A stretch of DNA of 64,000 bases, taken from a virus. The stretch lies in the IMG/VR virus record IMGVR_UViG_3300048834_000455, positions 25,906-89,905 of that record, one strand, 5' to 3'. Made by a program: the position numbers and the translations under genes. Positions 4,638 through 39,091 of this stretch are shown here, in pieces. Below the pieces are notes generated by a model, which was not told where the DNA came from, did not search any database, and worked only from the letters and a program-made list of their open reading frames with translations. The stretch's first letter is position 1. Each line of letters begins with the position of its first letter.

Positions 4638-5081
4638 ATGAATTCTGTTGCTATTACGGGCCGCTTAGGCGGAGACCCCGAATTGAGATTCACGAACAAC
4701 GGGAAAGCCGTTGCTTCGTTCTCACTGGCCATCAAGCAGACCAAAGAGATTACCCATTGGGTACAGTGTGAAGCGTGGGAGAAGACCGCCGAGTTCATCA
4801 ACCAGTATTTCGTAAAGGGCGATGGCATCGAGATTGTCGGCTCCCTCAAAGAGGAGACCTGGCAAGATAAAAACGGTGGAGGCAAGCGCTCTAAGCTCAT
4901 GGTGCGCGTTGGCCAGGCGCACTTCCCCGAAGGCAAAGCCGGTGGCAATGGCGGACAGGGAGAGGGCGACCGCCAGCCTGCCCGAAGTGGCCAGCAGTCA
5001 TCTCGTGGCGGGCGCAACGACTACGGCAACGACTCGGGGCTGAACCACGACGACCTCGGACCCGACGAGATCCCGTTTTGA
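4638..5081 (+). CDS. ssb: Single-stranded DNA-binding protein
   Basis: 147 residues: an OB fold starting MNSVAITGRLGGDPELRFTN, with HWVQCEAWEKTAEFI and IEIVGSLKEETWQDKNG, then a flexible Gly/Arg/Gln-rich linker. It ends in the acidic tip DDLGPDEIPF, the classic D-x-I-P-F tail that docks replication and repair partners. Good ribosome site (AGGAG) 7 nt before ATG. It coats ssDNA during replication and works with the Sak4-like ATPase just upstream. Confidence 0.95.
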   Translation: MNSVAITGRLGGDPELRFTNNGKAVASFSLAIKQTKEITHWVQCEAWEKTAEFINQYFVKGDGIEIVGSLKEETWQDKNGGGKRSKLMVRVGQAHFPEGKAGGNGGQGEGDRQPARSGQQSSRGGRNDYGNDSGLNHDDLGPDEIPF

Positions 5082-25854: not shown

Positions 25855-26027
25855 CCGACACCGAGGCCCTGAATCTGGTGCTGACCATGGCCACCCTTTG
25901 GCAAGATGGCAAGGTGGATCGCGCGCGGATGTTCGCCCCGGGATTCGCCGACGACGGACTTGACGAGACTGCCGAGGCGTTGCGGATTGCTCGGCACGTG
26001 GTGGCCGGGATGGAGGCAGGACGATGA
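25851..26027 (+). CDS. Small helical protein, 58 aa
   Basis: Exactly fills the space between its neighbours with ATGA overlaps. MTDTEALNLVLTMATLWQDG and TAEALRIARHVVAGMEAGR suggest two helices. Unknown function. Confidence 0.5.
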   Translation: MTDTEALNLVLTMATLWQDGKVDRARMFAPGFADDGLDETAEALRIARHVVAGMEAGR

Positions 26028-36211: not shown

Positions 36212-36678
36212 GTGAAGAGTATGACCCAGCAGATGAACGATGCTTCTGTCACGGCTACGATGTCGACTGCTGCCCGTGCGTCAACGGCGATGAGCCTTGG
36301 CCTGACGTGAGGCCCGCACTGGCCAAAGACACCGTCGAGTACGCATCCCACTTCAAGGCGTTCATGGCCCACTGTGCGGAAGGCGCCGCCGATACCAGTA
36401 GGGCGCACCGGAAGACCTTCTGGCGCAGCGTCATGTGCCCGTGCCCGGTGGAGGGATTCCCGAGGGTCGTGCAAGTCGAGGGTCCTGCCGCTGCCCACCT
36501 CTGCGGTATGGTCGCGGTTGTGGTCGCTCTCGAGGGGCATCCGCAGTGGGGCCGAGCTTGGGTGGAGATAAAGGGCCATGAGCTTGACCGCTACGGGTTG
36601 GAGAACCTGCAGTTGGCGTTGGCTTCGGCGCACGAGGACATGGCGCACATCGAGTATGCGCCCGAGGGGGACGAGTGA
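36208..36678 (+). CDS. Cys-rich hypothetical protein, 156 aa
   Basis: GTG start. CFCHGYDVDCCPCVNGDEPW is a metal-site-like cluster near the N-terminus, and a second CPCP occurs mid-protein. C-terminal helix LENLQLALASAHEDMAHIEY. Unknown. Confidence 0.55.
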   Translation: MSEEYDPADERCFCHGYDVDCCPCVNGDEPWPDVRPALAKDTVEYASHFKAFMAHCAEGAADTSRAHRKTFWRSVMCPCPVEGFPRVVQVEGPAAAHLCGMVAVVVALEGHPQWGRAWVEIKGHELDRYGLENLQLALASAHEDMAHIEYAPEGDE

Positions 36679-37175
36679 AGCACCTCCGCTATCTCTCCTA
36701 CCTCCTTCGCCACAAGTGGTGGGTCGTGTTCGCCGCTGTGAAGATGCGCCTCTGGCCCTGGGGCCACCCTTGGCTTTGGCTGCGCCTACTCGTGCACGAC
36801 TGGAGCAAATGCTTGCCATCAGAGTGGATTCCGTATGCCGAGAGCTTCTACGGGCCGCACGAGTGGAAGGCGAGGCCGACTGAGATGAAGGCCGCCTTCA
36901 ACAGAGCCTGGCTACTGCATATCCACCGGCAAGACCACCATTGGCAGCATCATTGCCTCTTGGAGGACAGTGGCGGGATGAAGGTGCTCGAGATGGGCAC
37001 GGCCGCCACCTTGGAGATGGTTTGCGATTGGGCTGGAGCAGGGCGAGCTATCCAGGGTCGATGGGACCTTGGCGCGTGGTACACAGCTAACCGAGACCGC
37101 ATGCACCTTGGGCCGGAGACACGGCGGAAGGTCGAAGGACTCATAGCCCGACACTGGACGGCATCGCCACCGTGA
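36675..37175 (+). CDS. DUF5662-like His-rich protein
   Basis: 166 residues. HKWWVVFAAVKMRLWPWG, then H-D-W-S-K-x-L-P-S-E-W-I-P-Y, AWLLHIHRQDHHWQHHCL, and MVCDWAGAGRA. The order HD..SK..P.E..PYA followed by H-x-x-x-x-H-H-W matches the DUF5662 family of phage and bacterial proteins, whose conserved His/Asp suggest a metal-dependent, HD-like site. Reaction unknown. Confidence 0.7.
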   Translation: MKHLRYLSYLLRHKWWVVFAAVKMRLWPWGHPWLWLRLLVHDWSKCLPSEWIPYAESFYGPHEWKARPTEMKAAFNRAWLLHIHRQDHHWQHHCLLEDSGGMKVLEMGTAATLEMVCDWAGAGRAIQGRWDLGAWYTANRDRMHLGPETRRKVEGLIARHWTASPP

Positions 37176-37995: not shown

Positions 37996-38736
37996 ATGCC
38001 TAAGACCCTGCGCCTGTCGCAAGTGATTGCCATCGAGAAGCAAGTAAAATCTCGCACCAACGGAGAGGGCGCTGAGTTGCACAAAGCCAACCAGAAAGCC
38101 GACCTCTTCACAGGCCTGAGCCGCGCATACGAGAAGAAGGATGAGGAAGGCGAAGACCTGCCCGGAGAGCAGAAGATCGTGCAGATGCGCGCGGGAGACA
38201 ATCTCGCGGCGTTCTCGACTCTGTGGGTCGAGTTGGTGGACGTGGTGGCGACTAAGGACTGGGGCAACTGCAGTGCCAAGGCCGACCTCGTGGTCAACGG
38301 GCAGACGCTGGTACAGGCGATGCCCGTGACGCATCTCATTTGGCTGGAGAAGCAGTTGGACGACCTGCGCACATTCATCGAGAAGCTGCCTGTTCTGGAC
38401 CCGTCGCGCACCTGGCGCCACGACCCTAGCTCGAACCTGTACGTCACCGACCCCGTGAAGACGGCGCGGTCGAAGGATGTGCCCCGGGTGCTGGTCAAGG
38501 CCGAGGCAACCGACAAGCACCCAGCACAAACCGAGGTGGTCAAGGAGAACGTGATTGTGGGCTACTGGTCGAGTGTATCGCAGTCGGGAGCTCTGCCGGA
38601 GTCGCGGCGTAGGTATCTCCTGGACCGCATCAACGACCTGCGGAAGGCGGTCAAGCAGGCCCGAGAAGAGGCCAACTCCATCAAGGTGGAGGAGGTCAGT
38701 GTCGGCGCCAAGATCGCCGCGTGGCTATCGAAGTAA
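37996..38736 (+). CDS. Hypothetical phage protein, 246 aa
   Basis: MPKTLRLSQVIAIEKQVKSR, TNGEGAELHKANQKADLFTG, WVELVDVVATKDWGNCSAKA, THLIWLEKQLDDLRTFIEKL, and a C-terminal LPESRRRYLLDRINDLRKAV. This architecture recurs in phage genomes as an uncharacterised family. Its own transcription start may be the element at 37927. The tRNA-like unit begins directly after its stop. Confidence 0.7.
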   Translation: MPKTLRLSQVIAIEKQVKSRTNGEGAELHKANQKADLFTGLSRAYEKKDEEGEDLPGEQKIVQMRAGDNLAAFSTLWVELVDVVATKDWGNCSAKADLVVNGQTLVQAMPVTHLIWLEKQLDDLRTFIEKLPVLDPSRTWRHDPSSNLYVTDPVKTARSKDVPRVLVKAEATDKHPAQTEVVKENVIVGYWSSVSQSGALPESRRRYLLDRINDLRKAVKQAREEANSIKVEEVSVGAKIAAWLSK

Positions 38737-38778
38737 AAGTTGAGCAAGCTGAGACTGAGACTCAGAATTGATGGTCAG

Positions 38779-38866
38779 CCCTGAAAAGTGTTGGTTCGAA
38801 TCCAACTCCCCGCGCCACTTGCGGGGATGGCGCAACTGGTAGACGCAAGGGTCCACAGATTCAGGT
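38779..38866 (+). tRNA. tRNA-like gene 1, circularly permuted (3' half before 5' half)
   Basis: T-arm GTTGG-TTCGAAT-CCAAC (38790-38806), acceptor 3' strand TCCCCGC (38807-38813), G, CCA (38815-38817), 3-nt linker CTT, then acceptor 5' strand GCGGGGA (38821-38827) and a class II D-arm (GCG 38830-38832 / CGC 38844-38846 with GGTAGA). Seven of seven acceptor pairs form. The anticodon is unsettled: TTCAGGT at 38860-38866 looks like a Leu CAG loop, but its stem is poor; AGGG (38848-38851) can instead pair with CCCT (38779-38782) across the permutation. No normal-order partner exists upstream. Confidence 0.6.
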
Positions 38867-38914
38867 TCCACTCAAGAAGCTAAACACAACAGCAGTCCCT
38901 CGAATCGAACTCGG

Positions 38915-39004
38915 AACGCCCATATCTCGAAGATGCTGGTTCGACTCCAGCCCCGGCCGCCACCTGGCCGGGTGTTCTAATGGCAAGATGTCGTTATTCA
39001 TGAC
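38915..39004 (+). tRNA. tRNA-like gene 2, circularly permuted
   Basis: Variable-arm-like hairpin ATCT-CGA-AGAT (38924-38934), T-arm GCTGG-TTCGACT-CCAGC (38935-38951), acceptor 3' strand CCCGGCC (38952-38958), G, CCA (38960-38962), linker CCT, acceptor 5' strand GGCCGGG (38966-38972), then a D-arm TTCT-AATGGCA-AGA (38975-38988). Seven of seven acceptor pairs form. AACG (38915-38918) can pair with CGTT (38992-38995) as an anticodon stem split by the permutation. Anticodon not assigned. Confidence 0.55.
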
Positions 39005-39054
39005 TGAGCGTTGCGATTAAAAGCCGTCGAGGGGTAAGCCCTGCGAACAAACTC

Positions 39055-39091
39055 GAGCCCTCAGTCGGCATAGCTGGGGGCTCTCTTATTT
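39055..39091 (+). terminator. Intrinsic terminator of the tRNA-like unit
   Basis: Ten-bp stem GAGCCCTCAG (39055-39064) / CTGGGGGCTC (39074-39083) with one G-T wobble, 9-nt loop, and tail TCTTATTT. It ends transcription before the repeated element and the next gene. Confidence 0.8.

Follow-up and report, generated by a model that had tools for sequence, protein, structure and literature searches.

Twin permuted tRNA-like domains in a structured RNA that accompanies DUF7873 genes in phages and bacteria

The tRNA-like structures of plant viruses form the 3' termini of RNA genomes, and in permuted two-piece transfer-messenger RNA (tmRNA) a linker splits the acceptor stem, with the T-arm side first, in a tRNA-like domain carried on a larger RNA core. 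In the bacterial RNA YrlA, a single tRNA-like domain serves as a substrate for DusA and TruB and as a tether for PNPase, with Ro60 bound to the stem (PMC8394870). Permuted tRNA genes have been described in six algal species and one archaeon, where splicing at a bulge-helix-bulge (BHB) motif is required (PMC3978253). Here we describe a locus within 64,000 nucleotides of viral DNA (the window; positions 25,906 to 89,905 of IMG/VR record IMGVR_UViG_3300048834_000455) that encodes a structured RNA of ∼300 nt with two permuted tRNA-like units, extending from ∼38740 to a terminator at 39083 directly 3' of a gene for a DUF7873 protein. Elsewhere in the family the RNA is up to ∼450 nt long. A first-pass annotation had read positions 38779-39004 as two tandem circularly permuted tRNA genes that share a terminator. 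The units and the terminator are present as described, but both units are modules of the larger RNA rather than separate genes.

Both units (38790-38846 and 38935-38989) run in the order T-arm, acceptor 3' strand, short linker, acceptor 5' strand and D-arm. A scanner set to require seven acceptor pairs, a D-arm and a T-arm of 5 bp closing a TTCNANN loop gave exactly two matches in the window, whereas 100 Markov resamples of the window gave no match. The original argument that each acceptor strand pairs with its own partner was correct, and a single split tRNA built from half of unit A and half of unit B was rejected, as the acceptors of the two units do not match. ARAGORN reported no tRNA genes in the window and Rfam gave no match anywhere in it at the gathering threshold, the best partial matches to the tRNA model RF00005 at the units scoring 14 and 13 bits against a cut-off of 29.

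For analysis of the family, 76 non-redundant copies were aligned piecewise with the linkers trimmed, and covariation was computed over all column pairs with no structure assumed. The strongest covariation was found in both acceptor stems, the T stems, the D stem of unit B and two long-range helices, H1 and H2, which join the spacer between the units to the trailer and flank a conserved internal loop, GATCGA / CTTAAACG. The acceptor stems are 94-100% paired with up to six pair types, although the percentages for acceptor and T stems are partly built in because the copies were collected by a scanner that demands this pairing; the many pair types, H1 and H2, and a tertiary pair (below) are independent of the scanner. 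In 50 copies of H1 and unit B, 87% of cells were paired compared with 58% after shuffling and 36-45% after sliding, 451 cells were changed on both sides compared with 148 after shuffling, and the covariation score was 0.72 compared with 0.21. The acceptor-stem covariation among related phages on which the permuted reading had been said to depend is plain in unit B of these copies, where 99.4% of cells are paired and 7/7 pairs show compensatory changes.

The covariation scan also recovered, in unit B, the equivalent of the tRNA tertiary pair 15-48, or Levitt pair. A-U or G-C was counted in 73/76 A units and 75/76 B units (148/152 overall), and the pair spans both sides of the permutation, hence each unit folds as a tRNA elbow. 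In both units the anticodon stem is replaced by a stem for which the mean over own partners exceeds that of every set of partner swaps; it is 4-9 bp long, has no 7-nt loop at its end and continues into the conserved core. The units resemble the permuted tRNA genes of algae and Thermofilum in having the 3' half before the 5' half, a short intervening sequence, a paired acceptor stem, and R15:Y48 and G18G19, whereas those genes yield functional tRNAs and the RNA described here, which occurs in bacteria and phages, lacks an anticodon loop. The known cases also need the BHB motif and a splicing endonuclease (PMC3978253). True permuted tRNA genes, in which circularised and cut precursors give two functional tRNAs, would explain the gene order and the intact acceptor, T and D arms. 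However, joining the far ends does not restore an anticodon stem-loop, since stems of variable length enter a conserved core at the would-be junction, there is no CCA rule, and the conserved flanking core and long-range helices would be superfluous in a tRNA gene, making this reading hardly tenable. Of the first-pass interpretation the permuted architecture stands but not the algal or archaeal type of gene, and its fallback, that the units are tRNA mimics that never become full tRNAs, fits best.

The linkers bear on the same question. The CCA noted at first in both units is indeed encoded in the window but it is not conserved across the family, being present in 40% of A units and 31% of B units, which is more than chance after a C74 that is itself conserved (83% and 96%, respectively). 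Position 73 is mostly A in unit A and G or T in unit B, where base pair 1-72 also varies. Linkers range from 4 to 56 nt, the long ones often with hairpins, and the CCA status differs between the two units of the same RNA. Taken together, the linkers, the CCA frequencies and position 73 speak against processing into tRNA and, judged from sequence, the units are not tRNA genes: they have no fixed amino-acid identity, do not require CCA and lack an anticodon. In Microcoleus phage My-WqHQDG (L017:3739-4010) a permuted unit has a hairpin-bearing linker of ∼90 nt, outside the scanner limit.

The main rival explanation is a split and charged RNA, in which RNase P would cut the linkers before acceptor base 1, trimming or extension would bring the 3' ends to CCA, and the resulting nicked domains would be aminoacylated in the manner of two-piece permuted tmRNA. 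RNase P requires only a T-arm and an acceptor stem, and a cut and trimmed two-piece form is conceivable because the linker ends are conserved, with N73 in unit A and C74 at the linker start, CCA at the above-chance frequencies just given, and a conserved C at -3 and purine at -2 before the acceptor. Against it are the 4-nt linkers (ACGG) of nine copies and the unequal CCA of paired units, and the variable position 73 and pair 1-72 of unit B imply that there is no single synthetase identity. We consider this explanation unlikely.

The RNA is not peculiar to one phage. The first-pass annotation knew of no established phage case, and the locus does lie in a phage, but the family is widespread in phages and bacterial chromosomes, those of Chloroflexota among them. 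In phage relatives the DUF7873 gene is followed by a largely unannotated stretch of a few hundred nucleotides with one or, usually, two permuted units. They follow DUF7873 homologues in Gordonia phages GodonK, Phendrix and Keelan, Rhodococcus phage NiceHouse and Arthrobacter phage Racecar, and are also found 3' of the gene in the cyanobacterial (Pseudanabaena) phages Pam2 and PA-SR01 and in Rhizobium, Klebsiella and Vibrio phages. Among DUF7873 loci from IMG/VR (80 fetched, 76 with enough downstream sequence to be counted), 68/76 have a unit at most 900 nt downstream and 42 have tandem pairs. The corresponding numbers for chromosomal loci, from Streptomyces, Nocardia, Kitasatospora, Catenulispora, Actinomadura, Ktedonobacter, Acidobacteria, Armatimonadetes and others, are 72/80 and 54. 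Over 2.6 Mb of the same DNA, both strands counted, 197 strong scanner matches lie beside DUF7873 and seven are listed elsewhere, three of which are actually beside the gene in short loci.

Co-occurrence was assessed with R1, a covariance model of H1 and unit B that scores 92.8 bits in the window, which was in its training set. Of the 61 Streptomyces genomes, 32 carry DUF7873. Exactly these 32 also have a full-length R1 match (60-112 bits), in each case adjacent to the gene, whereas the matches in the remaining 29 are all partial and do not exceed 54 bits, probably representing tandem tRNA genes of the ordinary kind. Since RNA and gene are linked in Streptomyces, Chloroflexota provide a better test. 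Of 121 Chloroflexota genomes ten contain DUF7873, and R1 matches were found in 9/10 with it and 0/111 without, one of the nine (G177) having weak matches alone and several being close relatives, so that few independent events are represented. In the combined sample of 182 genomes the RNA is present in 41/42 with DUF7873 and 0/140 without. The RNA gene and the DUF7873 gene are thus kept or lost together. They are nevertheless apart in seven of the nine Chloroflexota genomes, by 1.8 Mb in Herpetosiphon aurantiacus, by 123 kb in another, and on other contigs elsewhere. The unlinked Herpetosiphon RNA (L183/L182) has both units, the core and a terminator-like hairpin after it, with TTGCCC-17-TACAAT before it. 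These unlinked copies indicate that the RNA is the product of its own gene and acts in trans. A similar lack of linkage is seen in a Chloroflexi metagenome-assembled genome (L186). In Streptomyces sp. 130 (L145, ∼4800-4850) short similar sequences flank the site from which unit A is missing, and DUF7873 and the remainder of the RNA are retained, making this a natural single-unit mutant.

A two-component, single-copy module that is patchy (half of Streptomyces), phage-borne and strictly co-occurring could also be a toxin-antitoxin or autoregulatory pair, in which the RNA would be a decoy or inhibitor of a tRNA-targeting protein. In type III toxin-antitoxin systems a repeat RNA lies upstream of an endoribonuclease gene, whereas here the RNA is 3' of the gene and lacks such tandem repeats, and DUF7873 has no match to PADLOC, NCBIfam or toxin models. 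The core is also more conserved than a decoy requires, and in Herpetosiphon megabases separate the RNA from DUF7873. We therefore regard such a pair as quite improbable.

The closest described RNA is YrlA (RF02553) with its partner Rsr/Ro60, as both RNAs have a permuted T/acceptor/D domain grafted on another stem that replaces the anticodon arm, and both have a partner protein, a presumed one in the case of DUF7873. They differ in that YrlA has one domain in 90-150 nt rather than two domains and a conserved core, and a TROVE partner rather than DUF7873. A divergent YrlA-type Y RNA that binds a Ro60/TROVE protein would be consistent with the shared order of T-arm, acceptor and D-arm and with sub-threshold YrlA scores at the units (21.2 bits at unit B in the window and 24-38 bits in relatives). 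However, every score is below the gathering cut-off of 69, there are two modules rather than one, the presumed partner is DUF7873, and there is no match to PF05731 (TROVE/Ro60) in the 89.9-kb virus record, which is possibly partial. This assignment is very unlikely. Permuted tmRNA is similar in its split acceptor with the T-arm side first and in its tRNA-like domain on a larger core, but the RNA here has a full D-arm with G18G19 and two full elbows. No tmRNA model matched the window at the gathering threshold, a 17-bit beta_tmRNA fragment was found at unit B of one relative (L084), and there is no conserved tag reading frame, several copies having in-frame stops. The 3' tRNA-like structures of plant viruses are likewise a viral use of tRNA mimicry, but the RNA here is internal to a transcript from a DNA phage or a chromosome. 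It is new as a class of RNA, while the permuted tRNA-like module on its own is a variant of that in YrlA. There is no Rfam family for it (Rfam 15), and a search of open-licence papers found none on permuted tRNAs of phages, DUF7873 or a twin tRNA-like RNA.

We propose that the trans-acting structured RNA probably forms a ribonucleoprotein with DUF7873, in which the twin tRNA-like domains stay in the RNA as elbow mimics that engage tRNA-binding factors. Each domain, with its closed acceptor stem, T-arm, D-arm and tRNA tertiary contacts, would be grafted through its anticodon-stem ends onto a core of leader, spacer and trailer, with H1 and H2 arranged around the conserved AUCGA/CUUAAACG loop. 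DUF7873 would grip this core, and the two mimics may engage cellular tRNA-binding factors, such as modification enzymes, a ribonuclease or the ribosome, comparable to the single mimic of YrlA. Phage copies could then serve to use or blunt the same tRNA-level machinery. The sequence comparisons establish the fold with its covariation and tertiary pair, the strict tie to DUF7873 and the existence of unlinked copies; binding of the RNA by DUF7873, uncut linkers and the function of the particle are inferred. Several observations weigh against the proposal. Structure searches matched DUF7873 to no known RNA-binding fold and the protein is not basic (median isoelectric point (pI) 6.5), the RNA in the window is modestly more stable than shuffled sequences (folding-energy z -1.6), unit B of the window copy has a poor anticodon-like stem, and the conserved C74 and above-chance CCA might reflect occasional maturation of the 3' end. 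A related proposal, which we consider rather doubtful, is that DUF7873 and the RNA make up a translation-level machine that shows two linked tRNA mimics simultaneously to adjacent tRNA sites, such as those of the ribosome, and that bacteria and phages share as a particle for rescue, hibernation or take-over.

If the proposed ribonucleoprotein is real, its RNA would be a large bacterial noncoding RNA of a new class that has its own dedicated protein; about half of the Streptomyces genomes sampled carry it, as do phages of several bacterial phyla, yet annotation tools miss it or misread it as tRNA. The RNA also makes clear that a closed permuted tRNA body is reusable as an RNA module, well beyond the Y RNAs. 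As both partners are known and adjacent in tractable hosts (Streptomyces and Gordonia phages), the function is directly testable.

Features of the DUF7873 gene and the adjacent RNA, in window coordinates
Feature	Position	Strand	Evidence
DUF7873 gene, 246 aa, presumed protein partner	37996..38736	+	PF25283, E 7e-93; homologues precede the RNA in phages and chromosomes
Conserved RNA leader, 6-nt periodic YUNAR motif GAGCAAGCTGAGACTGAGACTCAG	38740..38777	+	aligned in 76 copies
Unit A, 5' strand of anticodon-stem replacement, GCCCT, pairs with 38848-38852	38778..38782	+	sequence; own-versus-swapped partner test
Unit A T-arm GTTGG-TTCGAAT-CCAAC, loop TTCGAAT	38790..38806	+	sequence; family covariation
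Unit A acceptor 3' strand TCCCCGC	38807..38813	+	7/7 pairs with 38821-38827; covarying in 76 copies
Unit A linker GCCACTT, caps acceptor stem	38814..38820	+	linkers of 4-56 nt in the family, with C74 but not CCA conserved
Unit A acceptor 5' strand GCGGGGA	38821..38827	+	family covariation
Unit A D-arm; holds A15 of the Levitt pair, whose T48 is at 38789	38830..38846	+	sequence; direct pair count
Unit A, 3' strand of anticodon-like stem, AGGGT	38848..38852	+	sequence; partner-swap test
Spacer core between units, diverged in window from family consensus CTCAGATTCTCGCTCCAGACTCAGCATT	38853..38896	+	alignment
Long-range helix H2, 5' strand CCCTCG	38897..38902	+	covarying spacer-trailer helix; present in minimum-energy fold
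Conserved internal-loop strand AATCGA	38903..38908	+	family alignment
Long-range helix H1, 5' strand	38911..38919	+	compensatory changes at each of 9 pairs (50 copies); 8/9 paired in window
Unit B T-arm GCTGG-TTCGACT-CCAGC, loop TTCGACT; T48 at 38934	38935..38951	+	sequence; covariation
Unit B acceptor 3' strand CCCGGCC	38952..38958	+	99.4% of cells paired in 50 copies
Unit B linker GCCACCT	38959..38965	+	family linker survey
Unit B acceptor 5' strand GGCCGGG	38966..38972	+	covariation, 50 copies
Unit B D-arm	38975..38989	+	covariation; R1 match
Long-range helix H1, 3' strand	39008..39016	+	covariation; R1 match
Internal loop, conserved second strand, TTAAAAGC in window, CTTAAACG in most copies	39017..39024	+	alignment
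Long-range helix H2, 3' strand CGAGGG	39028..39033	+	covariation; minimum-energy fold
Intrinsic terminator, RNA 3' end	39055..39083	+	terminator check in window

The DUF7873 protein was modelled with high confidence (predicted local distance difference test score, pLDDT, 92.7) as helices and long strands, and a fold search with this model against PDB and BFVD gave no significant match. BFVD entry A0A7M1RW91, from uncultured phage cr118_1, has a Foldseek probability of 0.99 but an E value of 0.03 and is possibly a remote relative. Upstream in the same phage is a gene for a DUF5662 protein (36675-37175); the other window neighbours scanned had no Pfam match.

In several reference phages the RNA locus is inside an array of tRNA genes, a location that fits a tRNA-level role though the window itself shows no tRNA genes. 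The array of Gordonia phage GodonK also contains the 3' end of a tmRNA gene (L003:1-83, 57 bits). A 'tRNA-Stop(tta)' annotated in Klebsiella phage Centimanus (L015:3932-4015) covers the spacer and the T-arm of unit B, which indicates that ARAGORN misreads the RNA as a suppressor tRNA; the annotated tRNA beside the unit in Vibrio phage K479 (L016:4091-4163) may be ordinary.

The YUNAR motif (CTGAAACTGA-like) recurs with a 6-nt period in the leader, spacer and trailer of most family members, and the pattern is self-complementary. A coding origin for the repeats, as alternating Lys and Leu codons, was rejected since frames differ among copies and in-frame stops are common. Pairing of the leader and spacer repeats was likewise rejected, own partners being hardly better than swapped ones and covariation giving no support. 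A sigma-70-like promoter for the RNA was also considered and set aside: good-looking candidates occur in Herpetosiphon and a few other copies, the family-wide signal is weakly above that of shuffled sequences, and the window has none. At three loci (L027, L034 and L026) the TAG or TAA stop codon of DUF7873 also appears to begin a -10 element for the RNA (TAGGAT, TAGACT and TAAGAT).
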